NCBI RefSeq assembly: GCF_900101095.1
Contig: NZ_FNFM01000013.1
Location: 62,001-126,000 of the forward strand
Source: Actinopolyspora mzabensis
Lineage (GTDB): Bacteria; Actinomycetota; Actinomycetes; Mycobacteriales; Pseudonocardiaceae
Reading direction: 5' to 3'
Length of the DNA: 64,000 bases
Under the pieces are notes generated by a model. That model was not told the origin of the DNA. It saw nothing but the letters and a program-made list of their open reading frames with translations, and ran no database searches. This document shows positions 27,922-52,311 of this stretch, one piece after another. Each line of letters starts with the position of its first letter. The first letter of the stretch is position 1. A program made the position numbers and the translations under genes.

Positions 27922-29691
27922 ATGGCTGCTCTACCGGACCGTGCCCGCCCTGCTCGGCAGTCGGCGCGATCGTTCGAGATGGTGCTACCCGGCCAGCTGC
28001 CGGAGGTGGGCGAGGTACTGGCGCGGGCCCAATCGGAGAACTTCACCGTCGCCGCCCGGGTACTGCCGTACCGGATCCGGCAACACCTCATGGCCGTGTA
28101 CGGCTTCGCCCGGCTCGTGGACTACGCCGGTGACGAGGCATGCGGTCCGCGTGAGGGGCTGCTGGAACTGCTCGAGGCGGATCTGGGACGTGCCTACGAG
28201 GGCACACCACGACTTCCGTTGCTGCGCGCGTTCGCACCGACCGTGCGCGCTTGCGGTATTCCCCGCGCCGTTCCCGCCCGGTTGATCGAGGCGAATCGGC
28301 GGGACCAGCACGTACGCCGCTATTCCACTTTCGAGGAACTGCTCGATTACTGCTACTACGCCGCCAACCCGATCGGGGAACTGGTCCTCTACATCTTCGG
28401 CCGGGTGGAACCGGAGCTGATCCGACTTTCCGACCGTATCTGTTCCGCGCTGCAGATCCTGGAGCACTGCCAGGACATCGGCGAGGACTTCCGCCAGGAC
28501 AGAATCTACATGCCGCTCACCGACCTGCGGGATTTCGGCTGTGCGGAATCGGAGCTCGCGGCCCCAACCGCATCCGCCGAACTGCGCAGGGCCGTGTGGT
28601 TCGAAGTGGATCGCGCGCTCGACCTGTTGCGGTCCGGCCAACCGTTGGTCGGACGACTGTCCGGACTGGCCCGGATGGCGGTAGCGGGCTACGTGGCGGG
28701 CGGAGTGGCCACGGCGCGGGCTTTCGAACCGGCCGGATACGACCCACTGGCAGTGGAGGTACGTCCCAACCGGAGGAGGATCCTCTCCGAATGGGTCCGG
28801 CTGTCGGTGGCGTCCTCGGCGGGGCTCGAACACGACCGCGTCCGCGAGGCCTACCGGTACTGCGAACGGCTCACCCGGACCCAGGCACGCAACTTCTCCT
28901 ACGGAATACGCCTGCTGCCTCCGGCCAAACGCGGTGCGCTTTCCGCCGTGTACGCCTTCGCCCGCAGGGTGGACGACATCGGAGACGGTTCGTTGTCGAG
29001 CGAGCAGAAGCTACTACGCCTGCAACAGGCACGGCATGATCTCGACGATGTCGGGCCGGACGCCAAGGATCCCGTGCTGGTGGCACTGGCCGACGCCACC
29101 CGCAGATCGCCCGTGCCGCTGGAGGCTTTCCACGAACTCATCGACGGGTGCGAGGCCGACGTGCAAGGCACTCGCTACGAGACCTTCGAACAACTCACGC
29201 ACTACTGCCGTTGCGTCGCCGGATCGGTGGGGCGCCTCTCGCTGGGAGTCTTCGGCCACGAGGTCACCGGACTGGCCGCTCAGCGTGCCGACGCCCTCGG
29301 CGTGGCGTTGCAATTGACCAACATCCTGCGCGACTTGCTGGAGGATCGCCGCGGCGGCCGTGTCTACATACCGGCCGAGGACCTGCGTCGTTTCGGCGTC
29401 TCACTCGAACTGGACTCGCGGGGGATGTTCACCGACCCGCGCGGTGCCCTGCACGAGCTCGTGCGTTTCCAGGCCCGTCGAATCGAACGGTGGTACTCCG
29501 AGGGTTTGCGGTTGCTCCCCCTGCTCGATCACCGCAGTCGCGCCTGTTGTGCGGCGATGGCGGGGATATACCACGAGCTGCTGCGGCACATCGCGGATGA
29601 CCCCTCGGCTGTGACTCGCGGGAGGGTCACGCTGCCGGGTAGGCAGAAAATGGTCGTAGCGGCTCGTTCACTGGCGGGGATGAAATCATGA
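27922..29691 (+). CDS. hpnCD: HpnC-HpnD fusion (presqualene diphosphate synthase / hydroxysqualene synthase)
   Basis: 589 residues from the ATG at 27922, with AGGAGG at 27911-27916. Two complete squalene/phytoene-synthase domains stand in tandem. Residues ~25-285 resemble HpnC (first acidic motif D67-Y-A-G-D71-E, second Q-D185-I-G-E-D189). Residues ~305-589 resemble HpnD (DDIGD at 351-355, NILRDLLED ending at 475). HpnD makes presqualene diphosphate from two FPP and HpnC converts it to hydroxysqualene; HpnE then makes squalene. These are normally two separate proteins. No stop codon or frameshift is seen between the halves. First gene of the hopanoid operon. Confidence 0.87.
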   Translation: MAALPDRARPARQSARSFEMVLPGQLPEVGEVLARAQSENFTVAARVLPYRIRQHLMAVYGFARLVDYAGDEACGPREGLLELLEADLGRAYEGTPRLPLLRAFAPTVRACGIPRAVPARLIEANRRDQHVRRYSTFEELLDYCYYAANPIGELVLYIFGRVEPELIRLSDRICSALQILEHCQDIGEDFRQDRIYMPLTDLRDFGCAESELAAPTASAELRRAVWFEVDRALDLLRSGQPLVGRLSGLARMAVAGYVAGGVATARAFEPAGYDPLAVEVRPNRRRILSEWVRLSVASSAGLEHDRVREAYRYCERLTRTQARNFSYGIRLLPPAKRGALSAVYAFARRVDDIGDGSLSSEQKLLRLQQARHDLDDVGPDAKDPVLVALADATRRSPVPLEAFHELIDGCEADVQGTRYETFEQLTHYCRCVAGSVGRLSLGVFGHEVTGLAAQRADALGVALQLTNILRDLLEDRRGGRVYIPAEDLRRFGVSLELDSRGMFTDPRGALHELVRFQARRIERWYSEGLRLLPLLDHRSRACCAAMAGIYHELLRHIADDPSAVTRGRVTLPGRQKMVVAARSLAGMKS

Positions 29692-31043
29692 CCCGTGGTC
29701 GGATAGTGGTCATCGGTGGGGGTCTGGCCGGTGTTTCCGCCGCGTTCGGCTGTAGTGACGCCGGCTTCGACGTGACCCTGTTGGAGGCGCGTTCCAGGTT
29801 GGGCGGAGCCACTTACTCGTTCTCCCGGGGCGAGCTCACCGTGGACACCGGACAGCACGTCTTTCTGCGCTGCTACACCGAGTACCTCGCGCTACTGCGA
29901 CGCCTCGGCACCCTCGACAGGGTACGGATCCAACCGAAATTCCGCGTCCCCGTGATCACGCCGCACGGTCCCGGCTGGACATTGCGGCGCGCCGAGCTGC
30001 CCGCACCGGGGCACCTGCTGCCCGCCCTGTGGGGACATCGTGCGCTGTCCGCACGGCAACGGCTCACCGCGGCGCGAACGGCGCTGGCACTGCGCGGGCT
30101 GGATCCGGACGACCCGGCCCTGGAACGCACCGACTTCGAGAGCTGGCTGCGCTCCCGTGGCGAGTCGAACCGCTCCCTGGCGACGCTGTGGGGACTGTTC
30201 TGCGTGGCGGCGCTGAACTCCCCGCCGGACGAGGCATCGCTGGCCCAGGCGGTCAAAGTGTTCCGCACCGGAATGTTGGACACCACCAGCGGAGGCGACA
30301 TCGGAGTGATCCGTCGTCCGTTGAGCGAAGTGCACGGTGAGCCGGCCCAGCGGAAACTGTCGGAGGCAGGCGTGCTGCCGTTGCCGCGGCACAAGGCGGC
30401 GGGGATCTCCGGCCAGCCGGGTGACTACCGAGTGCGGGTGAGCGCCGAACAGGAGTACGAACTGACCGCGGACGCGGTTGTCCTTGCCGTTCCGCATCCG
30501 GCCGCTGCCAGACTGCTGGCTGACCGGGACTCACCTGTCGGTGTCGATTTCGCCTCGTTGTCGCGCGCACCCATCGTGAACGTGCACGCCCATTTCGATC
30601 GCAGGGTGACCGACCTGCCCATGGCTGCCGCGCTGGACTCCCCGGTGCAGTGGTTGTTCGACCGCACGGAAGCCGCCGACGCGCCACGCGGCCAGTATCT
30701 GGCGATTTCGTTGTCCGCGGCTCACGAGGAGGTGAAGGAGCGTTCCGCACGACTGCGTGAACAGTACCTACCGGAGTTGCGAAGGCTGTTTCCCGCCGCC
30801 GGAGAAGCGCGGCTACTGGATTTCTTCGTCACGCGAGAGCCCGTGGCCACGTTTCGGCCCGTCCCCGGAGCGAGAGCGTCACGGCCGGCCGCTCGCACGG
30901 CTGAGCGGGGACTCGTACTGGCAGGCGCGTGGACCGATACCGGCTGGCCGGACACCCTCGAAGGGGCTGTACGGAGTGGGAACATCGCGGCACGCGTCGT
31001 CAGCGGGACCGTCTACCGCCACAGCGATGTGGCGTGGAGGTGA
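29688..31043 (+). CDS. hpnE: Hydroxysqualene dehydroxylase
   Basis: 451 residues. FAD-dependent amine-oxidase/desaturase fold with an N-terminal Rossmann motif (VVIGGGLAGVSAAFGCSDAG) followed by EARSRLGGATYSFSRG and the HpnE-type VDTGQHVFLRCYTEYL. C-terminal AGAWTDTGWPDTLEGAVRSG is the second FAD contact. It reduces hydroxysqualene to squalene. The ATG overlaps the end of hpnCD by 4 bp, linking the three squalene-forming activities in translation. A phytoene-desaturase-like role is less likely in this place. Confidence 0.9.
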   Translation: MTRGRIVVIGGGLAGVSAAFGCSDAGFDVTLLEARSRLGGATYSFSRGELTVDTGQHVFLRCYTEYLALLRRLGTLDRVRIQPKFRVPVITPHGPGWTLRRAELPAPGHLLPALWGHRALSARQRLTAARTALALRGLDPDDPALERTDFESWLRSRGESNRSLATLWGLFCVAALNSPPDEASLAQAVKVFRTGMLDTTSGGDIGVIRRPLSEVHGEPAQRKLSEAGVLPLPRHKAAGISGQPGDYRVRVSAEQEYELTADAVVLAVPHPAAARLLADRDSPVGVDFASLSRAPIVNVHAHFDRRVTDLPMAAALDSPVQWLFDRTEAADAPRGQYLAISLSAAHEEVKERSARLREQYLPELRRLFPAAGEARLLDFFVTREPVATFRPVPGARASRPAARTAERGLVLAGAWTDTGWPDTLEGAVRSGNIAARVVSGTVYRHSDVAWR

Positions 31044-31046
31044 AGC

Positions 31047-32057
31047 ATGACAGTGACAATGCCCTCCGCGCTCTCCAGCGCCCGAGAGTCCATCGACTCG
31101 CGATTGCGTCACACTGTCGCCGGATTGGATCCGGACACCCGCAGGGTCTGCGAGTACCATTTCGGCTGGATCGACGCCGATGGTTCCGAGGACCACCGAC
31201 CGGGCAAGGCGCTACGTCCGGCACTGGTGCTGCTGTCCGCGCGGGCCGCCACCGGCGACGAGCACAGTGCCTGCAGCGGGGCGGTGGCCGTTGAACTGGT
31301 GCACAACTTCTCGTTGCTGCACGACGACCTGATGGACGGTGACATCTCCCGCAGACACCGCGCCACCGCCTGGACCGTGTTCGGGCGGTCCGCCGCGCTG
31401 CTGGCGGGGGACGCGCTGCTCGGACTCGCCAACGGCGTGTTGCTCGAAGCCGACTCGCAGCGGGCGTTGTGGGCGGCTCGTGAACTCTCGGGTACCGTGC
31501 GGGAACTCATAGCGGGACAAGCGGCGGATCTGGACTTCGAGCGGCGTGCCGAGGTCGGATTCGACGAGTGTCTGCGCATGGTGGCGGGCAAGACTGCCGC
31601 GCTGCTCGCGTGCTCCTGCTCCCTCGGTGCCCTGCTGTCGGGAGCTTCCGAACACACCGTCCGACGACTGCGTGGTTTCGGATTCGAACTCGGAATGGCG
31701 TTCCAGCTCGTCGACGATCTGCTCGGGATCTGGGGGGATCCGGAAGAGACCGGAAAGCCGGTGCTTTCCGACCTGCGCTCCCGCAAGAAGTCGATGCCGG
31801 TCGTGCACGCGCTCAATTCGGACACCGACGCCGGTCTGTGGCTGCGTGAGCTGTACCGACAACCGGAGCAACCCACCGAGTCCCAAGTGCTTCGAGGGGC
31901 GGAGCTGCTGCGTTCGGCGGGCTCGGAGGAATGGACCAGGGCCGAGACGGAACGCAGATTGACGGCCGCTCACCGGCAGCTTCGTGATGCCGGGTGTCAG
32001 GGAACGACCGAAGGACTGACCGAACTCGCCGATTTCGTTCTCCGGAGGAACCAGTGA
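31047..32057 (+). CDS. Polyprenyl diphosphate synthase (probable FPP/GGPP synthase)
   Basis: 336 residues. Trans-isoprenyl-diphosphate synthase motifs: GKALRPALVLLSA (GKxxRP), first Asp-rich DDLMD near residue 98, and second Asp-rich region VDDLLGIWGD near 227. It condenses IPP onto allylic diphosphates. In the hopanoid operon the likely product is FPP, feeding hpnCD. Product length cannot be read safely from the sequence, and GGPP for the crt genes 20 kb away, which have no crtE, is an alternative or second use. Three bp after hpnE; its stop overlaps the shc start (GTGA). Confidence 0.85.
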   Translation: MTVTMPSALSSARESIDSRLRHTVAGLDPDTRRVCEYHFGWIDADGSEDHRPGKALRPALVLLSARAATGDEHSACSGAVAVELVHNFSLLHDDLMDGDISRRHRATAWTVFGRSAALLAGDALLGLANGVLLEADSQRALWAARELSGTVRELIAGQAADLDFERRAEVGFDECLRMVAGKTAALLACSCSLGALLSGASEHTVRRLRGFGFELGMAFQLVDDLLGIWGDPEETGKPVLSDLRSRKKSMPVVHALNSDTDAGLWLRELYRQPEQPTESQVLRGAELLRSAGSEEWTRAETERRLTAAHRQLRDAGCQGTTEGLTELADFVLRRNQ

Positions 32058-34087
32058 CCGGATCGCTGCGCCAGAACGGCGACATCCGCCAAGCCGACCA
32101 ACACCGAGTCGACGGACCCGTCACCGAGACGATGTCCCCGCCCCACTCGTCCGCGACGGACGTCGACTCCGAGCGGCTCTCGGTACCCCCGCAGCAGGGA
32201 CGTTCCTGGGAGGAGGCCCTTCGAGCCGGCAGCGATCACCTGTTGGGGCTGCAGCACGAGCAGGGATGGTGGAAGGGAGAACTACAGACCAACGTGACCA
32301 TGGACGCCGAGGATCTGATGTTGCGCCAGTTCCTCGGGATACGGACCTCGGCGGAAACCGCCGCCGCGGCACGTTGGATTCGTTCCCAGCAGCGTGCGGA
32401 CGGTACCTGGGCGGCGTTTCACGATGGCCCCGGAGAGCTGTCCACCACGGTGGAAGCCTACATCGCCCTGAAACTCGCGGGCGACGAGGTGGACGAGGAA
32501 CACATGGTCGCCGCACGGCGCTGGATTCGGCGCTGCGGCGGCATCGAACGGACCCGTGTGTTCACCCGCATCTGGCTGGCGATGTTCGGCCAGTGGCCGT
32601 GGGACGAACTCCCCGCCATGCCGCCGGAAATCGTCATGCTGCCGAGCTGGGTACCGCTGAACCTGGCCGACTGGGGCTGCTGGGCACGACAGACCATCGT
32701 CCCGTTGACCATAGTGAGCGCCCTGCGTCCCCGGCGTGAACTGGGAGTCGACACCGCTGAACTTCGTACCGGCACGCGCCCGGTGGGGCGGGTGCGCGAG
32801 AACGCCGGAAACTCGCGCTGGGAGGCCGTGTTCAACGGACTGGATCGGGTGTTGCACGTATATCAACGGCACCCGTTCCGCCTGTTGCGCGGCCAGGCCA
32901 TGCGGCGGGCGGCCGAATGGATCGTGGCCAGGCAGGAAGCCGACGGGTCCTGGGGAGGTATTCAACCGCCCTGGGTCTACTCCCTGCTCGCCCTGAACCT
33001 GCTCGGCTATCAACTCGACCACCCGGTGATGCGCGCGGGTATTCGGGGGCTGGAAGGCTTCCTGGTTCGGCAGGAGTCGGAACACGGCAGCCTCCGCAGC
33101 ATGGAGGCCTGCCAGTCGCCGGTCTGGGACACCGTGCTGAGCATCCAGGCGCTGCACGATGCCGGGGTGCCGGACAGCGACCCGGCGATTCGGGACGCCG
33201 TCGAGTTCGTCCGTTCCGAGGAGATCACCGTTCGAGGGGATTGGGCGGTACGACGACCTGAACTACCCGGCGGTGGAGGGTGGGCCTTCGAGTTCGAGAA
33301 CGACGGCTACCCCGATATCGACGACACCGCGGAAGTGCTGCTGGCTTTCGCCCGTACCGGCTATGTGGAACAGGATCGCATCGCCGCGGCGGTCGACCGG
33401 GGAAGACGTTGGCTGCGCGGTATGCAGTCCCGCGGTGGCGGCTGGGCCGCCTTCGACGCCGACAACACGCGCTGGCTGGTGAACAAGCTGCCCTTCTGTG
33501 ATTTCGGGGCGGTCATCGATCCTCCCTCCGCTGATGTCACCGCGCACGTGGTGGAGGCCTTGGCCCAGCTCGGGGACACCAACGACCGTGTCGTCCGGGA
33601 CGGCACAAGGTGGTTGTTCGAACAGCAGGAGAACGACGGTTCCTGGTACGGCCGCTGGGGAGCCAATCACCTCTACGGCACGGGTGCTGTGGTTCCCGCC
33701 CTGGTCAAAGTAGGGATACCGGTACAACACTGCGCGCTCACCCGTGCGGCCCGTTGGCTGGAGCAACGCCAGAACCCGGACGGTGGTTGGGGCGAGGACC
33801 TGCGTTCCTACACGGATCCTGCCTGGATCGGCAAGGGGGACTCCACCGCTTCGCAAACCGCCTGGGCCCTGCTGGCGCTGCTGGCTCTGGGACGTCACGA
33901 GACTGATCCGGTGCGGCGCGGCATCGCCTTTCTGACAGACACGCAGCAGGCGGACGGCAGCTGGGCGGAACCGCAGTTCACCGGTACGGGTTTCCCGGGT
34001 GACTTCTACATCAACTACCACCTCTACCGGCAGATCTTCCCGGTGACCGCTCTCGGGCGGTACCGACAAGCCGTCCACGCCGAATAG
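32054..34087 (+). CDS. shc: Squalene-hopene cyclase
   Basis: 677 residues from the GTG at 32054, with GGAGG at 32044-32048. The catalytic DXDDTA motif is at residues 421-426 (preceded by GYP). Repeated QW motifs are seen (e.g. QQRADGTWAAFH ~113, RQEADGSWGG ~293, EQQENDGSWYGRWG ~535, ERQNPDGGWGEDL ~575, QQADGSWAEPQF ~635), together with VWDTVLSIQALHDAG. A monotopic membrane enzyme that folds squalene into the pentacyclic hopene or hopanol. The first ~40 residues are polar and not family-conserved. Overlaps the previous gene by 4 bp. Confidence 0.95.
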   Translation: MTGSLRQNGDIRQADQHRVDGPVTETMSPPHSSATDVDSERLSVPPQQGRSWEEALRAGSDHLLGLQHEQGWWKGELQTNVTMDAEDLMLRQFLGIRTSAETAAAARWIRSQQRADGTWAAFHDGPGELSTTVEAYIALKLAGDEVDEEHMVAARRWIRRCGGIERTRVFTRIWLAMFGQWPWDELPAMPPEIVMLPSWVPLNLADWGCWARQTIVPLTIVSALRPRRELGVDTAELRTGTRPVGRVRENAGNSRWEAVFNGLDRVLHVYQRHPFRLLRGQAMRRAAEWIVARQEADGSWGGIQPPWVYSLLALNLLGYQLDHPVMRAGIRGLEGFLVRQESEHGSLRSMEACQSPVWDTVLSIQALHDAGVPDSDPAIRDAVEFVRSEEITVRGDWAVRRPELPGGGGWAFEFENDGYPDIDDTAEVLLAFARTGYVEQDRIAAAVDRGRRWLRGMQSRGGGWAAFDADNTRWLVNKLPFCDFGAVIDPPSADVTAHVVEALAQLGDTNDRVVRDGTRWLFEQQENDGSWYGRWGANHLYGTGAVVPALVKVGIPVQHCALTRAARWLEQRQNPDGGWGEDLRSYTDPAWIGKGDSTASQTAWALLALLALGRHETDPVRRGIAFLTDTQQADGSWAEPQFTGTGFPGDFYINYHLYRQIFPVTALGRYRQAVHAE

Positions 34088-34096
34088 GTGCTCGCC

Positions 34097-34708
34097 ATGA
34101 GATCGAATCTGCTCGTATGCACCCCGCTGCGAGTGGAGGCCCGCGCGTTGCGCCCGCTGGGCGCGAACCGGGTGTGGCGAACCGGATACGGCAAGCGACG
34201 CAGTGCCCGGTCGGCGGCCGAACTCACCACGCGCGAGTTCGGTGCGCTGGCCGTGGCAGGACTGGGAGGAGGGCTCGACCCGGGGCTGCGCAGCGGTGAT
34301 GTGGTAGTGGGAACCGAGCTCGTCGGGTCGGGGAGAGGTGCGTGCAGACATTCCCAGCGTCCCGAGCTGTTGGCCTACCGACTGCGTGACCTCGGGCTGC
34401 GTGTGTGGCTCGGCCCGGTACTGACCAGCGAGCGACTGGTGCTCGGTGCGGAGCGTGCCGTCCTGGCGCGGGGCGGTGCGCTTGTCGCGGACATGGAATC
34501 GGAGGTGTTGGCGACAGCGGCATCGGACCGCCCCGTCGTGATCGTGCGTGTCGTACTCGACACCCGCCGCCAACCGCTGCTGGGGCCCGGCTCGCCGGCT
34601 CGGCTGTCCGGGGCGCTGCGGCGGTTACGCGCTACCGGGCTCCCGCTGCTTCGTTGGGCCGAGGCTGTGGCGGGACCCGGTTCGCTGGATACTGTCCGTT
34701 CTCGCTGA
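34097..34708 (+). CDS. hpnG: Hopanoid-associated phosphorylase
   Basis: 203 residues from ATG 34097, which is better spaced from AGG at 34086-34088 than GTG 34088. Nucleoside-phosphorylase fold: VCTPLRVEARALRPLG at the start, VAGLGGGLDPGLRSGDVVVGTEL near residue 52, and VADMESEVLATAASDRPVVIVRVVLD near 133. HpnG removes adenine from adenosylhopane, giving ribosylhopane (via the phosphorylated form). It sits between shc and hpnH as in other hopanoid producers. Slightly short for the family. Confidence 0.85.
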   Translation: MRSNLLVCTPLRVEARALRPLGANRVWRTGYGKRRSARSAAELTTREFGALAVAGLGGGLDPGLRSGDVVVGTELVGSGRGACRHSQRPELLAYRLRDLGLRVWLGPVLTSERLVLGAERAVLARGGALVADMESEVLATAASDRPVVIVRVVLDTRRQPLLGPGSPARLSGALRRLRATGLPLLRWAEAVAGPGSLDTVRSR

Positions 34709-34725: not shown

Positions 34726-35727
34726 ATGGGTATCCCGATTCGCCAGGCCGCCAAGGTTGGTGCTTACCTGGTCAAACAAAAGATTCTGCGGCGTAAGAAA
34801 TTCGCGTTGACCCTCGAACTGGAGCCGTTGTTCGCGTGCAACCTGGCGTGCGCCGGCTGTGGCAAGATCCAGCATCCCGCCAACGTGCTCAAACAGCGGA
34901 TGCCGGTGGAACAGGCACTGTCCGCGGCCGAGGAGTGCGGAGCGCCGGTCGTCTCCATCGCGGGTGGTGAACCCCTGATGCACCCCGAGATCGAGACGCT
35001 CGTCCACGAACTCGTCAAACGCAAGAAGTTCGTCTACCTGTGCACCAACGCGCTGCTCATGCCACGCAAGATCGACAAGATCGAGCCCTCCCCCTACTTC
35101 TCGTGGGCAGTGCACATAGACGGCCTGGAGGAGCGTCACGATGCCTCGGTGAGCAAGCAGGGAGTGTTCGCGCAGGCGGTGGACAACATCAAGGACGCCC
35201 AGCGGCGCGGTTTCCGCGTAACCACCAACAGCACCTTCTTCAGCACGGACACGCCCAAGACGGTCATCGACGTGCTGGACTACCTCAACGACGAGCTCAA
35301 CGTCGACCAGATGATGCTGTCCCCCGCCTATGCCTACGACAAGGCACCCGACCAGGAGCACTTCCTGGGGGTCGAGGAGACCAGGGAACTTTTCAAGAAG
35401 GCTTTCGCCGACGGGAGGCGCAAAAAGTGGCGGTTCAACCACTCCCCGCTGTTCCTCGACTTTCTCGAGGGCAAACGGGACTTCGCCTGTACGGCCTGGG
35501 CGATCCCCTCGTACTCGTTGTACGGCTGGCAGCGCCCCTGCTATCTCATGGCGGATGGATACGCGCAGTCCTACCGCGAGCTGATCGAGGAGACCGACTG
35601 GGAGTCCTACGGCAGAGGAAGAGATTCCCGTTGCGCCAATTGCATGGCACACTGCGGCTACGAACCCACCGCGGTGATGGCGACGATGGGGTCGCTACGG
35701 GAATCGCTGCGGGCGATGCGAGGTTGA
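34726..35727 (+). CDS. hpnH: Adenosylhopane synthase, radical SAM protein
   Basis: 333 residues from ATG 34726, with GAGAGG upstream; the frame is open above but only across hpnG in another frame. The radical SAM cluster motif CNLACAGC lies near residues 38-45, followed by SIAGGEPLMHPEI (GGE motif). A C-terminal HpnH-type segment has cysteines (CANCMAHCGYEP near 303-314) that may bind a second cluster or zinc. It attaches the 5'-deoxyadenosyl group to hopene, starting C35 hopanoid side chains. Last clear gene of the operon. Confidence 0.93.
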   Translation: MGIPIRQAAKVGAYLVKQKILRRKKFALTLELEPLFACNLACAGCGKIQHPANVLKQRMPVEQALSAAEECGAPVVSIAGGEPLMHPEIETLVHELVKRKKFVYLCTNALLMPRKIDKIEPSPYFSWAVHIDGLEERHDASVSKQGVFAQAVDNIKDAQRRGFRVTTNSTFFSTDTPKTVIDVLDYLNDELNVDQMMLSPAYAYDKAPDQEHFLGVEETRELFKKAFADGRRKKWRFNHSPLFLDFLEGKRDFACTAWAIPSYSLYGWQRPCYLMADGYAQSYRELIEETDWESYGRGRDSRCANCMAHCGYEPTAVMATMGSLRESLRAMRG

Positions 35728-35905: not shown

Positions 35906-36613
35906 ATGCACAATCCGACGACCGTCCAGCTGGACGGGCTCCGGACTCATCTCTCGCACGCGGGTAAGAAGCTGTTGGAGACGACTCTCGCGCCCTTGGG
36001 GCTGTTCTACCTGCTGCTGCAACTGACCGATCTGACGGGAGGACTGCTGGCGGCACTGGGATGGGCGCTGGCGGCAGTGGTGTGTCGGCTGGTGCTGCGC
36101 GCGCGGATCCCGGCGGTGCTGCTGTTGACCACGACACTGTTGGCAGTGCGTACCGTGGTCGGCCTGCTCTCGCAGAGCGCTTTCCTGTACTTCCTGCAGC
36201 CGAGTCTGCAGAACTTTTTGATAGCGGCCGTGCTGCTGGCCACGCTGCCGTTCGAACGCACCTTTCTCGCACGGTTGGCCGACGACTTCTGTGTCTTTCC
36301 GCCCGCCCTGATGGGCCACGCCGTGCTGCGACGGTTCTTCCGGCGAGTGTCGTTGCTGTGGGCCGCTGTGTTCATCGCCAACGGGGCCGCCGCACTCTGG
36401 ATGCTCGCCGAGCACACGGTGGGACAGTTCCTACTGGTGAGCACCATCGGGTCCTACGGGCTCGTGGCTTCGGCCGCTCTCGTCTCGTTGCTGTGGTTCC
36501 GAAGGGAGCTGCGAGGGCACGGCATCCGACTGCGGATCGGGAACGGGGATCCCGGTCTGTGGTCCAACGTGCTACGACCGCTCTGGAACCCCCTCGGCAG
36601 TGGGGTGCGTTGA
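35906..36613 (+). CDS. Polytopic membrane protein, unknown function
   Basis: 235 residues from ATG 35906, with GAGG at 35897-35900; longer starts from 35774 lack support. About six hydrophobic segments (LAPLGLFYLLLQLTDLTGGLL, LAAVVCRLVLRARI, VLLLTTTLLAVRTVVGLL, FLIAAVLLATLPF, SLLWAAVFIANGAAALWML, GSYGLVASAALVSLLWF). The pattern recalls the VC0807-type integral membrane family, from memory only. It follows the hopanoid operon by 178 bp, and its promoter may be separate, so a role in hopanoid handling is only possible. Confidence 0.6.
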   Translation: MHNPTTVQLDGLRTHLSHAGKKLLETTLAPLGLFYLLLQLTDLTGGLLAALGWALAAVVCRLVLRARIPAVLLLTTTLLAVRTVVGLLSQSAFLYFLQPSLQNFLIAAVLLATLPFERTFLARLADDFCVFPPALMGHAVLRRFFRRVSLLWAAVFIANGAAALWMLAEHTVGQFLLVSTIGSYGLVASAALVSLLWFRRELRGHGIRLRIGNGDPGLWSNVLRPLWNPLGSGVR

Positions 36614-36718: not shown

Positions 36719-37471
36719 TCAGCGGTCACCCCCGAACAGCCCGTTGAGCCGGTTGAAGATACCGGGCATACCCCCCTGCATGCGGGACGCCGCACCCAGC
36801 CAGCGGGGTACGAAGCTCTCCCGGCTGCCCTGTTCGATCGCTCTCACGATCCGGGAAGCCACCAGCTCGGCTGAGACCTGCCGGGGAAACCCGCGCTCGT
36901 AGGCCCTGCCGCGTCGCCGGAAGAACGGAGTGCGTACCGCCCCGGGAAGCACGGTCGTGACTCCTACACCGGCACCACCGAGCTCGTGCCGCACCCCGGC
37001 CGCGAAGGCACGCAGTCCCGCCTTGGTCGCTGAGTAGACTGCCTCGTCGCGTACTCCCACGGCGGCGATCGACGAGACGAAAACGACGTGTCCACCGCCA
37101 CGCTGCCGCATCTCGGGCAGTAGCAGGCGGGTCAGCTCCAGCGGGGCAGCCAGATTCACGGCGAGCAGTCGTTGGACATGCTCGCTCGGCATGTCGATGA
37201 ATTCCCCGGCCCAGCCGATTCCGGCGTTGTTGATCAGAACGTCCGCACCGGCCGCCGCGTCGGCGACTCGGGGAAGTTCTTCGGACAGGGTGAGATCGGC
37301 CGTCAACGTCCGAGCCCCGGTCATCTCCCCGACGTGCCGCAGCCCGCGTTCGTGGCGGCCGACCAGGATCAGTTCACACCCCCGTCGCGCCAGCAACCTC
37401 GCGGTGGCCGCGCCGATCCCGGAGGACCCACCGGTCAGCAGTACCGTTCGCCCCTCGAGACGGAACCGCAT
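36719..37471 (-). CDS. Short-chain dehydrogenase/reductase
   Basis: 250 residues from ATG 37471, with AGG eight bases upstream. Classical SDR: TGGSSGIGAATARLL (cofactor motif), NNAGIG, catalytic Ser in VFVSSIAAVG and YSATKAG (Tyr-Lys). Arg/His after the second strand (GRHERG) hints at NADP. The C-terminus (SRMQGGMPGIFNRLNGLFG) looks like the amphipathic tail of SDRs that act on lipids at the membrane. Substrate unknown; next to a convergent membrane-protein gene and near lipid genes. Confidence 0.85.
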   Translation of the reverse strand: MRFRLEGRTVLLTGGSSGIGAATARLLARRGCELILVGRHERGLRHVGEMTGARTLTADLTLSEELPRVADAAAGADVLINNAGIGWAGEFIDMPSEHVQRLLAVNLAAPLELTRLLLPEMRQRGGGHVVFVSSIAAVGVRDEAVYSATKAGLRAFAAGVRHELGGAGVGVTTVLPGAVRTPFFRRRGRAYERGFPRQVSAELVASRIVRAIEQGSRESFVPRWLGAASRMQGGMPGIFNRLNGLFGGDR

Positions 37472-37738: not shown

Positions 37739-38662
37739 TTACCCCCAGCTCACTGTTCCACCATTACCGATGGACTCGTTGTTCTCGATTTCCCTCCGCA
37801 ACGCTTCACCCCGATGTGTGAGCAACACGATTCCGCCGACGATCGCCACGGCGGCCACTGCTTGCCCCCACAGCACCGCCGGGGTGGAAACCACCGTCTC
37901 GCCGAACCAGCCGATTCCGATCGCCACCCCCACCAGGGGATCCACGGTGGTGATCACCGCGAGCGCGGGAGAGATCAGTTTTCCCTGTTGAAAGGCGTTC
38001 TGGCTCAGCAGGAAACCACACGGGCCGACGAGGCACACCGCGTAGAGCACCCAGTGCTGGAACGGTTCGACGAAGCCACCCGTGCGGAACTGGCTCGCCA
38101 CCACCTTCATCAGCGCCGCGGTCACCCCGTAGATCACCCCCGTCGCCAGTGCCAGTGCGATCACCCGGATCTCGCCCGGGAAATGTGACGCGGCCAGCAG
38201 GCACACCACTGTGATCACTCCGAGTAGCACCGCCAGCGGGATCGCCTGGGGCTCTATGGTCTCGTCGCCTCCCCCCGGCCGCGCCAGCAGCAGGAAAGCG
38301 GCGAGACCACTCATGCACCCGAGTGCACCCAGTACGACGATCCGGTCCAGTTTGCGATGTGCCAGCCAGGCCGCGTGCAGGGCGGCGAACAGCACGCTGG
38401 TCACCAGCAGTGGCTGGACCAGCATCAACGGGCCGTAGGCCAGTGCCACGACCTGCAGGGACAGGCCCACGATGACCGTGCCGACACTGGCCAGCCATAT
38501 CGGCTTGCGTACCAACTCCAGCAACAGGCGTGGGTTGAGAGTCCGGATACTGGGCACCTGTTTGGTGGCCCGTTGCTGTACCGCGCTGGCCATGCCGAAA
38601 CTCGCGGCGCCGAGCAGCGCCGCCGGAACCGCTACCGTGAACCAGGCCCCCGACGCGGTCAA
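37739..38662 (-). CDS. DMT-superfamily membrane protein (EamA/magnesium-transporter-like)
   Basis: 307 residues from a TTG at 38662 that overlaps the stop of the preceding fusion gene by 4 bp (TTGA), with GAGGAAG upstream. About nine to ten hydrophobic helices, starting WFTVAVPAALLGAASFGMASAVQQRA. The arrangement follows the DMT family of actinobacteria (LVQPLLVTSVLFA, LLSQNAFQQGKLISPALAVITTVDPLVGV). Coupled translation with the glycosyltransferase-acyltransferase suggests export or flipping of that enzyme's lipid product, which is inference. Confidence 0.75.
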   Translation of the reverse strand: MTASGAWFTVAVPAALLGAASFGMASAVQQRATKQVPSIRTLNPRLLLELVRKPIWLASVGTVIVGLSLQVVALAYGPLMLVQPLLVTSVLFAALHAAWLAHRKLDRIVVLGALGCMSGLAAFLLLARPGGGDETIEPQAIPLAVLLGVITVVCLLAASHFPGEIRVIALALATGVIYGVTAALMKVVASQFRTGGFVEPFQHWVLYAVCLVGPCGFLLSQNAFQQGKLISPALAVITTVDPLVGVAIGIGWFGETVVSTPAVLWGQAVAAVAIVGGIVLLTHRGEALRREIENNESIGNGGTVSWG

Positions 38663-41145
38663 CGTGGCGCTTCCTCACGGGTGGTCCCCGGCCGCGGAGT
38701 GGACTCGGGCGGGCCTTGCAGTTGTCGGAAGCAGGAGCGCAGCTGCTCGCGGAGCCTGGCGGGAAGCCACTCCAGCCGAGCGTCGGCGGTGATTCCCACA
38801 CCCACCGTGTCGCCCCAGCTGATCAGCCCTATCGCCGTTCCGACACCGGGAGCGAGCGGAAGGATCGGCAGCACCTCGGCCACCAACGCCCCCCAGACCC
38901 GGGGCGGGCGACGTGACCCCGGCATGGCGGAGACCAGCGCGTTGAAGAACCGGCGTTGATAGATCGTCCGCACCAGCAGCCGATGCAGCGGCGTGGGAAG
39001 CAGCCCCAGCGCCGCCATCGCGAGGCCTGCCGCTGCCGGTTGCCCGGCGTGCTGTCCCGCGGCCAGTCGCTCCGCCACCTCGCGCAAGCGCTGCTCCGTT
39101 TCCATGGGACCGACCGGAAGATCCACCGACACCGCGACGGTCCGGTTCCCGAACATTTCCGCCGTCGGTGCCTCCCGAGGTGAACGTGTGGTACGCGGCA
39201 CCATCACCCGCATGTGCTGTCCCGGGCTGGTGCCGGTTCGTTCGGCGAGCGTGCGGTGCAGCGCCTCGGCGGTCAGACCGATCAGCAACACACTGCTGGG
39301 GAGCCCGCGAGCGCGTGCCTGTGCGCGTACTTCGCTGCTGGGCAGCTCCGCGGTGTCGAAGACCCGGCCGGAGGTGCTGTCCCCGTCCAACGGGCTCCGT
39401 GGCGCAGGTCCAGCGGTGCCCAGCTTCCACAGCCCCCGCGCCACGCTCAGCGCAGTGCGCCCCCGGGAGACGAGGAGGGTACGGAGTGCTGCCGCCGAGG
39501 TTTTCCGCTCCTCGCGCGGGGGAGGCGCATCCCGCTCCCACTCGTCGACGTCGTCACGCAGCAACCGCACCAGGGTGTTCGTGACCGCGATCCCGTCACC
39601 CAGCGCGTGGTGCAACTTCGCGAGGAGCAACGTTTCGGTGTCCGTGCACAGCACCATCAGTTGCCAGGGAGGGCGATCCGTCGGTACCGCGGCGCTGAAG
39701 AACTCCCGTACCACCTCGTCGCGTGCCGGGGTGGTGCGATGATCCAGATGCCGCCCCGGCTCGATACACCGAACTGTGTGCCACCGCGGGGCGTGAGCGC
39801 CCCGTTGCACCAGCGTGTTGCGCAGCATCGGCAGCGAGCGGGCACGTCGTTCGATCAGCTCGGCAAGGTGTCCCGCCCACTGTTCGGCGGTTCTCTCCTC
39901 GGGCGCCTCCCGCAGTCGCAGCACGGCACCGGTCTGCTGCGGTACCGCCGCGTCCGCCGCGTGTACGAAGAAACGGTCGGAGGAGCGCAACCGTCGTGCG
40001 CCGCGGTGCCTGGGCAGTTCGGCGAGCGCGGCCACCTGTGTGGTGAAGTCGCCCGAAGTGGCCTGTCCCAGGACACGCTGTTCGGCGCGTCGCAGTCGTT
40101 CGGGACTGGTGGTGAGCTCGTGCAGCGTGGCCGCCAGCGATTCGGAGGTCGGGCACAGTTCCGCCAGGCCTGCTCGTGCCATGAGCTCCGCGTTGGCTCG
40201 CCCGTGTCCGGCGATCGGTTCGAACATGATCACCGTGCGGCCACAGGCCATGGTCTCCAACGCGGTGGCACCTCCTGCGTTGGAGATCACCACATCCGCC
40301 GCGGCCGTCAAGCCCGGCATGTCGTCGCACCACCCCAGCGGCAGCAACCTCCGTTCGGTGCCGTCGCGCTCCGCGAGTCGCGCACGGAGCTGTTCGTTAC
40401 GGCCACACGCCACGATCACCCGGTCGACGCGAGGTTCGGCCAGCGCCGCGTCCACGGCGCGTTCCACCGAACCGAACGACAGGGAGCCGCACGCGATCAG
40501 AACCTGGAACCCCTCGGCAGGCATGCCCAGTGACAGCCGGGCGTCCGCCTTGTCGCGGGGGCGGAACTCCGCGGAAACGGGAGGTGCGCTCACGGCCGCC
40601 GTGGCGTCGGGCTGCGCACGGTGGAGCGCTCGCAGGCTGGCCTCGCTCATCACGTAGTGCAGATCGATCTCCGGGTGCACCCAGAACGGGTGCGGGCAGA
40701 AGTCCGAGATCACGGCCGAGACCGGTTTTTCCAGTTCGCCACGGCGACGCAGCCGATCCAGCCCGGCAGTGGCCATCGGATAGGTCGAGATCACCAGGTC
40801 CGGTTCCCACCGTCGGATTCGACGGCGAAGTGGTGGTCCGACCCAGGCTCCCACGAAACGCCGAGAAGCGGTAGCGAACCAGCCCCACCGCCACAGCGCG
40901 TCGTAGAACAGGTCGTACAGCCACGGGGTGGACTCCACGTTGCGCACGTAGATCCATCGGAACAGCGGCCCGACCCCCGGGCCCATCACCCGCAACGTGT
41001 CCAGACGCGCTGTTTCGCATCCGGGCCAGAGTCGCCGCGCCGCGTCCTCCACGGCCCGGGCCGTCGCGTTGTGCCCCTCACCGATATCGGCACTGACCAG
41101 CAGCACTCGTACCGGGGAGCGAGCGTTCGGGTGGTGGGAGGTCAC
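38659..41145 (-). CDS. Bifunctional fusion: MGDG-synthase/MurG-like glycosyltransferase plus wax ester synthase/DGAT-type acyltransferase
   Basis: 828 residues from a GTG at 41145, with GGAAGG upstream. Residues ~1-380 are a GT-B glycosyltransferase of the processive diacylglycerol glycosyltransferase type: GEGHNATARAVEDAARRLW (22-40), YPMATAGLDRL, PVSAVISDFCPHPFWVHPEI, and a donor site SNAGGATALETMACG (288-302). Residues ~385-828 match the WS/DGAT family: catalytic HHxxxDG with H512, H513, D517, G518, then PSSVLLIGLTAEALHRTL, MVPRTTR, MFGNRTVAVSVDLPVGP and a C-terminal WS_DGAT_C part. It could glycosylate a lipid and acylate the same molecule. The frame is continuous. A DMT transporter is coupled downstream. 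Confidence 0.85.
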   Translation of the reverse strand: MTSHHPNARSPVRVLLVSADIGEGHNATARAVEDAARRLWPGCETARLDTLRVMGPGVGPLFRWIYVRNVESTPWLYDLFYDALWRWGWFATASRRFVGAWVGPPLRRRIRRWEPDLVISTYPMATAGLDRLRRRGELEKPVSAVISDFCPHPFWVHPEIDLHYVMSEASLRALHRAQPDATAAVSAPPVSAEFRPRDKADARLSLGMPAEGFQVLIACGSLSFGSVERAVDAALAEPRVDRVIVACGRNEQLRARLAERDGTERRLLPLGWCDDMPGLTAAADVVISNAGGATALETMACGRTVIMFEPIAGHGRANAELMARAGLAELCPTSESLAATLHELTTSPERLRRAEQRVLGQATSGDFTTQVAALAELPRHRGARRLRSSDRFFVHAADAAVPQQTGAVLRLREAPEERTAEQWAGHLAELIERRARSLPMLRNTLVQRGAHAPRWHTVRCIEPGRHLDHRTTPARDEVVREFFSAAVPTDRPPWQLMVLCTDTETLLLAKLHHALGDGIAVTNTLVRLLRDDVDEWERDAPPPREERKTSAAALRTLLVSRGRTALSVARGLWKLGTAGPAPRSPLDGDSTSGRVFDTAELPSSEVRAQARARGLPSSVLLIGLTAEALHRTLAERTGTSPGQHMRVMVPRTTRSPREAPTAEMFGNRTVAVSVDLPVGPMETEQRLREVAERLAAGQHAGQPAAAGLAMAALGLLPTPLHRLLVRTIYQRRFFNALVSAMPGSRRPPRVWGALVAEVLPILPLAPGVGTAIGLISWGDTVGVGITADARLEWLPARLREQLRSCFRQLQGPPESTPRPGTTREEAPR

Positions 41146-49227: not shown

Positions 49228-50826
49228 TCAGCGTCGCAGACCGCGCAACAGGGCGAATCGGCCACGATCGGGGACACTCCACAGCGTGTGTCCCCGCACA
49301 CCCCACCCGTGCAGCAGCTCGTTCGCTGCTCGCATCCCGCTCGTGGCGGCACGTTCCATAAGAGCGACCGGTAGGTCGACACGCACCAGATCTCCCGCCA
49401 GCATCAACGCCGGATCGGGCGTTCGTACGCCGGGACGCTCGGCGAAACCACCGGGCGGAAACAGCGGGCAGTCGGCTCGCAGTTCGTGACGCTCGTCCAC
49501 GATGCCCGCTACTTCGGTTTCCGGATATATCCTGGCCAGTTCCGCCAGCATCCGCGCTCGCAAGCTGTCGAGGGATGGTTCACCTGGTAGTGCGTAACCG
49601 TGCAACTCGAGTACGGAACCCCCGCGTTCCCCCGACCAACGGGCCGCCTCGTGCTCGTACCGTTCCAACACGCTGATGTTGTCCAGCGGCCCGTAGCCAC
49701 TCGTTCCGAGGAACCCGGGCCTGTCCCGGCGAACCGGTCGGTCCAGCCACAGCCGCGACACCAGGAACGGTGGGGCCTCGCGCAACTCCGCTATCCGCGT
49801 TCGCCACCGCGACGTCCCTAGATCGGGTGAATTGGCGACGATGCTCCGCAAACCAGCGGTATCGGTGGCCAGTACCACCGCGTCGAATTCCGGAAAACCC
49901 GCTTCTAGTGCTGCCGTGGAGTCCGAACGCACCGCGAAGCGTCGGTCGGAGCCCCGTTCCAAGGCCCTGACCGGGGTGTCTGTGAGCAGGGTTGCACCGT
50001 GGTCGACCAGGTACTCCGCCAGCGGATTCCACAACGCCTCCGGGAACGAGTTCGCCGCCACATCGAACAGCAGCCCCTCGCTGGAGCCGAGAAAGTAGAT
50101 GTGAAACATCGTCGCCAGTTCGGCGGCGGACAGCTCGGTGGGTTCGGCGAAGAAGCTGCGGGAGAACACCTCGAAAGCCAGATGTTTGGCAGCGGCGGGA
50201 AAACGGATCCGACTGAGAAGTGTGTCCGCGTCGAGGTGGTCCAGACGCTCGTAGATCTCCGGGACCGAGACCTGCGCCAGCGGTAACGCGGCGCGGGTTC
50301 CGAGCCGGGGGAGATCGCGCCAGTTGAACGTGGGACTTCGTGCGACGAACGCGAAGGCGTTCCACGGAGGAGTACGTGGCAGGCCGGCGAAAGTGTCCCG
50401 ATATCCGGCACTGTGCAGCAGTGGATAGTCCGGAAGCGCGGTTAGGCCCGAAAGGTCCGGATCGGCACGCCGCAGAAGTGCGCGAAGGTTGTAGTACTGC
50501 CGGAAGAACGCGTGGAACCCACGATTCATACCGACGTCCGACCCGTCCGCGAGCGTGGTTCGCCAGCCACCGACCCGTCCGCCCAACCGGCCCTGTGCCT
50601 CCAGCACCGTGACGCCGACACCCCGCTCGGCCAGACAGGTGGCCGCGGCGACTCCCGCGATGCCCCCGCCGATCACGGCTACTCGGGGGAGACGAGCGAG
50701 ATGACTCGTGTCCGGCATGCCGCCGTGGGGGGGATGCGGCACCGCCCTGCGGTCCTGGCCGGGAGGTTCGTGCTCGCCGCTCCCGTCGTCACCGGCCGAT
50801 CGGGAAGCAGTGAAACCGCGCATCAT
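49228..50826 (-). CDS. crtU: Carotene desaturase/methyltransferase CrtU (isorenieratene synthase type)
   Basis: 532 residues from ATG 50826, overlapping crtT by 4 bp (ATGA). An N-terminal ~45-residue polar lead precedes the FAD motif (RVAVIGGGIAGVAAATCLAERG), EAQGRLGGRVGGW and MNRGFHAFFRQYYNLRALLRR. VLATDTAGLR and a C-terminal AGDLVRVDLPVALMERAATSGMRAANELL complete the desaturase/isomerase plan. In Streptomyces CrtU turns beta-carotene phi-rings into aromatic rings with methyl shift. This copy lacks a fused Rieske domain, but a separate Rieske protein is beside it. Last gene of crtI-crtB-idi-crtT-crtU. Confidence 0.85.
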   Translation of the reverse strand: MMRGFTASRSAGDDGSGEHEPPGQDRRAVPHPPHGGMPDTSHLARLPRVAVIGGGIAGVAAATCLAERGVGVTVLEAQGRLGGRVGGWRTTLADGSDVGMNRGFHAFFRQYYNLRALLRRADPDLSGLTALPDYPLLHSAGYRDTFAGLPRTPPWNAFAFVARSPTFNWRDLPRLGTRAALPLAQVSVPEIYERLDHLDADTLLSRIRFPAAAKHLAFEVFSRSFFAEPTELSAAELATMFHIYFLGSSEGLLFDVAANSFPEALWNPLAEYLVDHGATLLTDTPVRALERGSDRRFAVRSDSTAALEAGFPEFDAVVLATDTAGLRSIVANSPDLGTSRWRTRIAELREAPPFLVSRLWLDRPVRRDRPGFLGTSGYGPLDNISVLERYEHEAARWSGERGGSVLELHGYALPGEPSLDSLRARMLAELARIYPETEVAGIVDERHELRADCPLFPPGGFAERPGVRTPDPALMLAGDLVRVDLPVALMERAATSGMRAANELLHGWGVRGHTLWSVPDRGRFALLRGLRR

Positions 50827-51542
50827 GTTTCCGCCCTCTCGGATCGTTTTCCGGTCAGGGTGTGCACGATGCCGCGCTGCCATCCCGACATCGAGCCGAT
50901 ACGTACTCCCACGAGACCGTTCCGACGCATCCGCGCGGCGAGCTGTTCGGTCGAATCGAATCCCAGGACGCTGCGCCACAGGTAAGGGTGAATTCCCGAG
51001 CCACGCGTGCTCAGTGCACCGGCAGGAATGATCACACCCCAACACACCGCCGTCCAGACCAGCCGGGAGACAGGGCGGCCCCGCACGGAGAACTCGTGCA
51101 GTGCCAGGCGAGCACCGGGGGCGAGCAACTCGCGCAACACGTGCAGCCCGGCGTCGGGGTCGGGAAGGTTGCGGAGCAGGTACGCCGCCATGATCCCGTC
51201 GAACGATCCGCGCACACCGGCTTCTTCGAGTCCGTCCAACGGTGCGTGAACGAACTCCACCGTGTTCGGCCAGGACTTTCGTTCGGCCTGTGTCAGCATG
51301 TTCGCGGAAGCGTCCGTGGCCACGATGTGCGCGCGCGGCGCGATTCGGAGCAGCGCCGCGGTGGACGCGCCGGTACCGCAGCCCGCATCCAGCAACCGCA
51401 GTCCGCGGCCACCGTCGGGCAGGTGTAGCCGAAATGCCGATCGTCGTAGCGCGCGGTGGTATCCGGGGTTGAGCCCGACCAGCCGGTCGTACTGGCGAGC
51501 GTGCTGCTCGAAACCCCCCACAACGGGGTACGGGGAATACAT
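50823..51542 (-). CDS. crtT: SAM-dependent methyltransferase in carotenoid operon (CrtT-like)
   Basis: 239 residues. Class I methyltransferase: LLDAGCGTGASTAALLRI, IVATDASANML, FVHAPLDGLEE and LLRNLPDPDAGLHVLRELLAPGARLALHEF, close to the UbiE/CrtT pattern of actinomycete isorenieratene clusters. The role of CrtT is not firmly known; it may modify a carotenoid or a quinone cofactor. Start ATG 51542, 172 bp after idi. Confidence 0.78.
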   Translation of the reverse strand: MYSPYPVVGGFEQHARQYDRLVGLNPGYHRALRRSAFRLHLPDGGRGLRLLDAGCGTGASTAALLRIAPRAHIVATDASANMLTQAERKSWPNTVEFVHAPLDGLEEAGVRGSFDGIMAAYLLRNLPDPDAGLHVLRELLAPGARLALHEFSVRGRPVSRLVWTAVCWGVIIPAGALSTRGSGIHPYLWRSVLGFDSTEQLAARMRRNGLVGVRIGSMSGWQRGIVHTLTGKRSERAET

Positions 51543-52308: not shown

Positions 52309-52311
52309 CGC

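Follow-up and report, generated by a model that had tools for sequence, protein, structure and literature searches.

A conserved glycosyltransferase-acyltransferase fusion linked to hopanoid genes in Actinopolyspora mzabensis: a candidate hopanoid-tailoring enzyme

Introduction

Hopanoids are widespread bacterial membrane lipids, geological biomarkers and the bacterial counterparts of cholesterol; to our knowledge, the genes behind several of their tailoring steps have yet to be assigned. A 64,000-nt stretch of the Actinopolyspora mzabensis genome (hereafter the window) contains one long reading frame in which a glycosyltransferase (GT) of the GT28 type, a group of inverting, UDP-sugar-using enzymes, is joined to an acyltransferase of the wax ester synthase/diacylglycerol acyltransferase (WS/DGAT) family. 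Here, we ask whether this frame is a genuine gene and, if so, which lipid its two domains might act upon.

Domain architecture of the fusion protein

Translation of positions 38659..41145 (- strand) yields 828 residues followed by a stop, without a break, and Pfam, motifs and predicted structure agree in assigning both domains. The GT part (residues about 1-372; 40030..41145, -) matches MGDG_synth at residues 25-170 (58.3 bits, Pfam cut-off 25) and Glyco_tran_28_C at residues 215-353 (38.4 bits, cut-off 22), while the WS/DGAT part (residues about 386-828; 38659..39990, -) matches WS_DGAT_cat at residues 386-570 (45.2 bits, cut-off 23.6) and WS_DGAT_C at residues 666-809 (55.4 bits, cut-off 20.7). 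The initial annotation had proposed a single GT-WS/DGAT frame with intact motifs, and both proposals were borne out. The GEGH motif lies at residues 22-25 (41071..41082, -), with G22, G24 and H25 invariant in 41 fusions, and the catalytic HHxxxDG motif, here HHALGDG, at residues 512-518 (39592..39612, -), with both histidines, the aspartate and the glycine invariant in the same set. A predicted structure, based on an alignment of 29 of the 41 fusions (pLDDT 82), matched the expected folds in both halves: the GT-B fold of MGD1 (4x1t; TM 0.80 by target length, E value 2.1e-17) and the WS/DGAT structures 6chj and 7nxg (TM 0.71-0.72 by target length).

In the PDB, the sequences that best match the GT part are those of a processive diacylglycerol (DAG) beta-glucosyltransferase and MGD1, and it shares with GT28 MGDG synthases and processive DAG glucosyltransferases the domain pair, the GxGH motif and the fold. 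However, the GQE motif of MGD1 and of the processive DAG glucosyltransferase is replaced by GHG (H314, G315 and N318 being invariant in the 41 fusions), so the donor sugar cannot be read from the motif; the protein further differs in its additional acyltransferase, in its linkage to hopanoid genes and in scoring 123.5 bits, far below the cut-off of 500, against the NCBIfam diglucosyl-DAG-synthase equivalog NF010135. Similarly, the acyltransferase part resembles other WS/DGATs in both Pfam halves, the HHxxxDG motif and the fold, but it carries a GT domain, stays below the cut-off of the NCBIfam WS/DGAT subfamily TIGR02946 (161.9 bits, cut-off 309.95) and falls apart from the 20 others sampled in our tree (see below). 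The HpnI model TIGR03472 was not among the five NCBIfam models that matched the fusion at E values up to 1.

Authenticity, distribution and origin of the fusion

That the frame results from a frameshift, an assembly error or the chance joining of two genes is practically inconceivable. At 41 loci, gene calling placed both halves in a single frame of 784-882 residues (the window itself, 33 of 34 loci obtained in one search and seven divergent genomes), and codon-position G+C is coding-like throughout the joint (residues 369-414); these two observations rule out an artefact, and the fusion is real and conserved. The initial annotation had named a hidden frameshift near the joint, or homologues that are always two genes, as grounds for rejecting it; neither was found. 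By eye, no Shine-Dalgarno-like sequence was seen upstream of the internal GTG/TTG codons 371, 386 and 408. The 34th locus from that search, L055, encodes a GT only. In two of the 20 related genomes with the fusion (G014 and G023), the genome search registered a single TGA within the match, whereas gene calling returned unbroken frames of 813 and 799 aa (L027 and L099). Some of the 41 loci belong to close relatives, so they do not represent 41 independent events; identity to the window across the other 40 nevertheless drops to about 40 % for the GT and 33 % for the WS/DGAT part.

The architecture is common in Actinopolyspora, Saccharopolyspora and their kin, being present in 20 of 61 related genomes, and in a class-wide sample of 394 it was detected in just two, the window's own and G269 (E limit 1e-35, two candidates per genome scored). 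Saccharopolyspora spinosa (L034) is among the carriers of both the fusion and the hopanoid cluster. The fusion search scored 16 candidates per genome in the relatives, two in the class and three in the phylum; as only some first-look candidates were scored, absences can be misses, above all for the neighbouring dehydrogenase in the class sample. The initial annotation knew the two families only as separate proteins. The literature searched does not contradict this (a full-text search of open-licence papers returned nothing on the fusion or its link to hopanoids), but the genomes show the combination to be common in these genera.

Phylogenetic analysis, based on the window and 22 of the 40 related fusions with duplicate loci omitted, indicated a single origin of the acyltransferase part, which likewise speaks against an artefact; a 100/100 branch separates the fusions and separately hopanoid-linked relatives from the 20 other sampled WS/DGATs. 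The tree contains long branches (L098, L094, L103, L114 and L101), and the sister placement of L103/L114 is unsure. No phage match was obtained at an E value of 1e-10, and among plasmid records, 22 of which gave partial hits, none covered 80 % of the protein at a single site; phage and plasmid origins were therefore rejected.

Genomic context and linkage to hopanoid biosynthesis

The fusion heads an operon on the - strand. As the initial annotation had recognized, a DMT-family membrane protein is coupled to it by a TTGA overlap (38659..38662, -) combining the fusion's stop with the TTG start of the next gene, and this coupling recurs: the DMT gene is next downstream in 40/41 loci, with a 4-nt overlap in 28/41. 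The 307-aa product (37739..38662, -), a putative flippase, scores 99.8 bits against NCBIfam NF038012 (cut-off 50), while Pfam EamA and NIPA both remain under their cut-offs. It is followed by a 250-aa short-chain dehydrogenase/reductase (SDR; 36719..37471, -; Pfam adh_short).

This operon adjoins a hopanoid cluster on the + strand, comprising HpnC and HpnD in one 570-aa frame (27979..29691; TIGR03464 and TIGR03465 over cut-offs), the hydroxysqualene dehydroxylase HpnE (29688..31043; TIGR03467 over cut-off), a polyprenyl diphosphate synthase (31047..32057; Pfam), squalene-hopene cyclase (SHC; 32054..34087; TIGR01507 over cut-off), an HpnG-like phosphorylase/nucleosidase (34088..34708; PNP_UDP_1 over cut-off, TIGR03468 at 72.2 bits under its cut-off of 187.1), the adenosyl-hopene transferase HpnH (34726..35727; TIGR03470 over cut-off) and, adjoining HpnH, a VC0807-family membrane protein (35906..36613; NF041646 over cut-off). 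The initial annotation listed hopanoid alcohols among its assay substrates but missed this cluster.

The linkage extends well beyond the window. A hopanoid gene lies within the fetched flank (mostly about 8 kb) at 40/41 fusion loci in three arrangements: with the HpnH/HpnG side downstream (30), with the HpnC/D side upstream (9) or in the same direction downstream of HpnH (1). At the sole exception, L051, SHC is located elsewhere in the genome. These neighbourhoods were derived with a home-made codon-usage gene caller that missed or misplaced some genes, among them SDRs that the search found in L204, L208, L115 and L188. Among the relatives, 20 of the 27 genomes whose SHC scores over cut-off carry the fusion, against 0/34 others; the Fisher test, like all our co-occurrence tests, ignores kinship, and 10 of the 34 have weak SHC matches under cut-off. 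Taken together, gene neighbourhood and distribution favour a hopanoid as the acceptor. We retain the broader concept of an acyl-glycolipid synthase put forward in the initial annotation, but find no support for diacylglycerol as its default acceptor; the interpretation given there is, as a whole, partly supported.

Several loci also carry a 400-430-aa gene upstream of the fusion, which in L045, the one scanned, encodes a PucR-type regulator; the gene preceding the L055 GT instead encodes a radical-SAM/B12-binding protein. A DNA-polymerase-beta-like neighbour (L095:6144) was set aside as unrelated.

The SDR and the ribosylhopane step

The SDR was found in 25/27 SHC-positive related genomes against 0/34 others (kinship ignored; 44 candidates per genome scored in the relatives and six in the class, E limits of 1e-45 and 1e-40 chosen by us). 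A quick tree of 46 rows picked from 41 of the loci in our collection gave a support of 88 for a group of 39, and the matches in the PDB are generic, pointing to no substrate. A 2025 paper describes the enzyme converting ribosylhopane to bacteriohopanetetrol as not established (PMC12583986). A review mentions bacteriohopanetetrol alongside aminobacteriohopanetriol in its account of Streptomyces coelicolor (PMC10301674). The SDR is a candidate for the reduction of ribosylhopane, and its distribution makes the question testable through one gene.

Separate halves at other hopanoid loci

A standalone GT accompanied by a polysaccharide deacetylase lies beside the hopanoid cluster at six loci (L116, L172-L175 and L193). 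Conversely, next to SDR and HpnH, L096 retains a WS/DGAT with just a GT remnant, so acylation there need not follow glycosylation, and L103 and L114 encode PAP2-WS/DGAT fusions at the hopanoid cluster. The GT, deacetylase and DMT are also grouped at L104, L105 and L108, where the fetched region contains no hopanoid gene; the L105 GT has a C-terminal extension that returned no Pfam match.

In the class sample, HpnH (five candidates per genome scored) was found in 53/62 genomes with the GT and in 39/332 without it, kinship being ignored; 9/62 GT genomes and 6/73 SDR genomes lacked it. Three genomes (G151, listed as 100 % complete, G177 and G207) encode both GT and SDR without HpnH. In one genome family (f33), HpnH-carrying genomes have the GT within a GT / SDR-DMT-deacetylase module. 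The association of GT and SDR inside this family alone was not significant (p = 0.07), a test in which G180, G190 and G230 were scored GT-negative although their SDR region shows a GT, the GT E limit of 1e-35, chosen by us, undercounting the family.

Proposed function and alternatives

On balance, we lean towards a bifunctional hopanoid-tailoring enzyme that adds a sugar to a bacteriohopanepolyol and then O-acylates the resulting lipid. In what we infer of substrate, donor sugar, step order, acylation site, product, flipping and the role of the SDR, the N-terminal GT-B (GT28, MGDG-synthase-like) domain would use a UDP-sugar to glycosylate a hydroxyl of the C35 bacteriohopanepolyol supplied by the neighbouring SHC-HpnH-HpnG pathway, after which the C-terminal WS/DGAT domain would draw on acyl-CoA to acylate either the newly attached sugar or a leftover side-chain hydroxyl. 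The resulting acylated glycosyl-hopanoid would be flipped by the coupled DMT protein, with the SDR supplying the polyol by reducing ribosylhopane.

Such a product would be comparable with acylated steryl glucosides, uniting a polycyclic triterpenoid, a sugar and a fatty acid, with a hopanoid replacing the sterol; the likeness proposed is one of product logic. One source lists cholesteryl 6-acyl glucoside among bacterial natural products (PMC5574887). Sugar transfer to bacteriohopanetetrol is also the kind of step performed in the HpnI-HpnK-HpnJ pathway, for which GlcNAc transfer, deacetylation and cyclitol ether formation are described (PMC12583986). The fusion differs in lacking a match to the HpnI model and in carrying an acyltransferase in place of a deacetylase. 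We also rejected an HpnI-type enzyme as the alternative GT of the genus, as 0/61 related genomes exceeded the HpnI cut-off.

An unlikely competitor is an acylated glycerol glycolipid, in which the GT would glycosylate mono- or diacylglycerol and the WS/DGAT would acylate the sugar, the hopanoid linkage reflecting shared membrane remodelling. The glycerolipid glycosyltransferases nearest to the GT by sequence favour this explanation, as does the isolation of alpha-mannosyl-(6'-O-acyl-mannosyl)-monoacylglycerol from Saccharopolyspora rectivirgula, a species that carries the fusion (L041); the same source, however, reports the glycolipid from Rothia and Arthrobacter too (PMC5574887). The fusion is found in just 2/394 class genomes, a sample not known to include those two genera. 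Furthermore, an alpha-mannosyl product fits poorly with inverting, UDP-sugar-using enzymes, and a glycerolipid role leaves the SHC-restricted distribution and clustering unexplained.

Slightly less probable again is that both domains act on hopanoids independently, the GT yielding a glycosyl-hopanoid and the WS/DGAT esterifying either the side chain of the polyol or some other alcohol, so that fusion merely co-localizes and co-regulates them. The hopanoid loci with an acyltransferase but at most a GT remnant (L096, L103 and L114), those with GT and deacetylase but no WS/DGAT (L116 and L172-L175) and the linker (residues 358-385), which has no invariant position across the 41 fusions, are consistent with this. 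Yet the fusion has been kept at 40 other loci despite their divergence, and this persistence suggests an advantage of coupling. Finally, synthesis of carotenoid glycosyl esters seems very improbable: phytoene-synthase- and desaturase-like frames, identified by eye, lie about 8-14 kb off in the window (about 49.2-54.8 kb), and the flanks of L026 and L050 match the frame at 49228, but over the 41 loci, in flanks of mostly about 8 kb, the conserved immediate neighbours of the fusion are DMT, SDR and hopanoid genes.

Returning to the acylated glycosyl-hopanoid, we tentatively suggest, as a possibility well short of even, that the operon and its neighbours constitute a new branch of hopanoid synthesis, in which the SDR would be the missing reductase, the fusion a single-chain acylated glycosyl-bacteriohopanetetrol synthase and the DMT protein the flippase. 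Where a GT is paired with a deacetylase at a hopanoid cluster in actinobacteria, the pair resembles an HpnI/HpnK counterpart, and the GT / SDR-DMT-deacetylase module of other actinobacteria may be an analogue built from other protein families; the branch would have descended from, or run parallel to, this module, with acylation replacing deacetylation through fusion. Our literature searches found no acylated glycosyl-hopanoid from Actinopolyspora or Saccharopolyspora. If the proposal is true, it predicts such a lipid class, the acylated glycosyl-hopanoids, for both genera.

The fusion protein and its distribution

The initial annotation claimed a single 828-residue frame joining a diacylglycerol-glycosyltransferase-type GT-B glycosyltransferase (GT) to a WS/DGAT acyltransferase at 38659-41145; translation confirmed that this frame, on the − strand, is real and uninterrupted. 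Four domains (MGDG_synth, Glyco_tran_28_C, WS_DGAT_cat and WS_DGAT_C) each score above their Pfam cut-offs, and codon composition shows no break at the GT/acyltransferase joint. The structure predicted from a 29-sequence alignment (pLDDT 82, pTM 0.64) resembles both MGD1 (4x1t, TM 0.80 by target length) and the wax ester synthases 6chj and 7nxg (TM 0.71-0.72 by target length). When 41 fusions were aligned (the window protein, 33 from close relatives and 7 divergent), 85 residues were invariant, among them G22, G24, H25, D148, H152, W155, E297, H314, G315 and N318, as well as H512, H513, D517 and G518; residues 358-385 of the same alignment hold no invariant position.

A search reaching close relatives only returned 34 loci, 33 of which encode the full-length fusion (Actinopolyspora, Saccharopolyspora, Halosaccharopolyspora, Halopolyspora and actinobacterial metagenome bins), while the remaining locus, L055, encodes the GT only. 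The fusion is present in 20/61 related genomes, among them every one of the 10 that represent the genus; the match in genome G013 consists of two adjacent pieces in the same frame. In two wider searches, with a small number of candidates scored per genome, it was found in two of 394 genomes of the class, the window's own and G269 (E≤1e-35), and as a full-length match in one of 296 genomes of the phylum, again the window's own (E≤1e-30). Its distribution thus seems to centre on the window's family and closely related groups.

Linkage to hopanoid genes

The window carries a + strand cluster encoding HpnC-HpnD, HpnE, a polyprenyl synthase, squalene-hopene cyclase (SHC), an HpnG-like protein that scores below the cut-off of its own model, and the adenosyl-hopene transferase HpnH. 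HpnC and HpnD share one 570-residue frame (27979-29691, +; TIGR03464 and TIGR03465 above cut-offs), unlike many relatives, in which they are two genes. Against NF041169, a model of family 2 encapsulin cargo with a cut-off of 450 bits, the polyprenyl synthase (31047-32057, +) reaches 412 bits. Genes judged by eye to be carotenoid-type lie at approximately 49228-54824 (−).

On the − strand, the fusion forms an operon with a DMT membrane protein (the proposed flippase) and a short-chain dehydrogenase/reductase (SDR). The DMT directly follows the fusion in 40/41 loci, with a 4-nt overlap in 28. The SDR comes second in 39; at L034 a tandem pair of DMT genes precedes it, and at L041, which has no DMT, it comes first. 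A hopanoid gene lies within the fetched flank of 40/41 fusion loci. The cluster occurs in three arrangements: downstream on the HpnH/HpnG side (30 loci), upstream on the HpnC/D side (9) and upstream on the HpnH side (1); the linkage has therefore outlasted rearrangement. The one other locus, L051, belongs to a genome with SHC elsewhere.

SHC scored above the cut-off in 27/61 relatives, with weak matches below it in 10 more, and the fusion occurs in 20/27 SHC genomes versus 0/34 others (Fisher 1.4e-10, uncorrected for ancestry). Seven SHC genomes lack it. In G033, a WS/DGAT with a GT remnant adjoins SDR and HpnH (L096). In G057 and G035, the hopanoid cluster adjoins a gene whose product joins WS/DGAT to a PAP2 phosphatase-like domain (L103:8345-10336, − and L114:13894-15834, −, respectively), and G035 also has a GT-DMT pair elsewhere (L095). 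In G060, a GT, a deacetylase, two DMTs and an SDR lie beside HpnH (L116); G047 has DMTs near HpnH, GT and deacetylase approximately 8.5 kb from it and an SDR in the same region (L115). For G041 and G020, the listed completeness is 86 and 74 %, and SHC lies on contigs of just 6.0 and 6.9 kb (L117, L118).

Origin of the fusion

A midpoint-rooted tree built on 46 acyltransferase domains gathers the 23 fused domains into one clade (support 100/96), in which L096 is the sole unfused member. Sister to this clade is the PAP2-WS/DGAT pair (L103, L114), all 26 together being supported at 100/100 on long branches, and 20 other WS/DGATs fall on the opposite side. Residues 27-111 of L096 match GT residues 98-184 of one of the fusions (39 % identity, E 8e-11); most of the GT has thus been lost in L096. 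Among the 65 rows of the GT tree, the 23 fused GTs group with unfused L095 and L055 (25 rows, 97/92), and the second GT of L094 comes next; L095 encodes GT and DMT, and its fetched region shows no hopanoid gene. At L094:7727-11247, beside HpnH, this standalone GT (−) adjoins a strongly diverged fusion (+) in divergent orientation. A single fusion event followed by partial losses is the simplest reading of these trees.

The GT family outside the fusion

In the class sample, GT was found in 62 genomes (E≤1e-35) and HpnH in 92, with both in 53. A GT-deacetylase pair adjoins HpnC/D at L172, L174, L175 and L193 (genome family f31) and L173 (f27). In f33, the GT belongs to a GT/SDR-DMT-polysaccharide deacetylase module apart from the hopanoid cluster; by gene calls, the module is complete in 6/8 regions (L202, L203, L205, L206, L207, L209), and in L204 and L208 the SDR search placed the SDR beside the GT, outside the gene calls. 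In L210, the ninth region from f33, just GT and deacetylase are present. L105, L104 and L108 (f32) combine GT with deacetylase and DMT, and their fetched regions show no hopanoid gene. Their GTs carry long C-terminal extensions (L105:7944-9836, +; L104:7762-9555, −; L108:8098-10080, −); that of L105, the one scanned, had no Pfam recognition. Many f32 genomes have two HpnH matches each. No SHC was seen within the fetched regions L194 and L200.

Where a deacetylase adjoins the GT, it points to an N-acetylated sugar; beside the fusion, no deacetylase was seen.

The SDR as a candidate ribosylhopane reductase

The SDR (36719-37471, −) occurs in 25/61 relatives (E≤1e-45), all among the 27 SHC genomes (0/34 others). 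In the class sample, for which no more than six candidates were scored per genome, it was found in 73/394 (E≤1e-40), 67 of which also have HpnH. The 92 HpnH genomes divide into 51 with GT and SDR, 2 GT only, 16 SDR only and 23 neither (p 2.4e-9). Within f33 alone, the association is not significant (5 both, 2 GT only, 8 SDR only, 21 neither; p 0.07); three of the eight counted as SDR only (G180, G190, G230) yet have a GT in the SDR region.

Among 20 further HpnH regions from 19 genomes, gene calls placed an SDR near HpnH in six (L182, L184, L189, L192, L193, L198), and four (L182, L189, L197, L199) contain an aminotransferase-like gene, labelled by similarity to an L181 gene taken as an aminotransferase by eye. 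The class search placed an SDR 1.7 kb from HpnH in G104 (L188) and, in members of f32 that include G189, G229 and G076, one 10-15 kb from it.

Aminobacteriohopanetriol lacks a free terminal hydroxyl, which would explain why a GT might need the SDR. The SDR is a good, if unproven, candidate for converting ribosylhopane to bacteriohopanetetrol, a step whose enzyme is not established according to PMC12583986.

Proposed function

The initial annotation proposed a possible acyl-glycolipid synthase with a diacylglycerol-glycosyltransferase-type domain; the fusion stands, and the favoured acceptor shifts from diacylglycerol to hopanoids. The best rival product is the acyl-dimannosyl glycerolipid of Saccharopolyspora (PMC5574887), a genus among the fusion's hosts; the neighbourhood and SHC co-occurrence point to a hopanoid. 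There is chemical precedent: according to PMC8537080, whose references include N-acylated bacteriohopanehexol-mannosamides, certain species may acylate the hopanoid side chain.

For the hopanoid product, we favour an order in which the GT would act first and acyl transfer second, because the arrangement that is more widespread in our samples pairs the GT with a deacetylase and lacks the acyltransferase, and because a sugar hydroxyl would be a natural WS/DGAT acceptor. L096 warns that acylation can proceed without this GT. The fusion represents neither a new fold nor a new class of chemistry; its novelty lies in the enzyme architecture and the biological context that goes with it.
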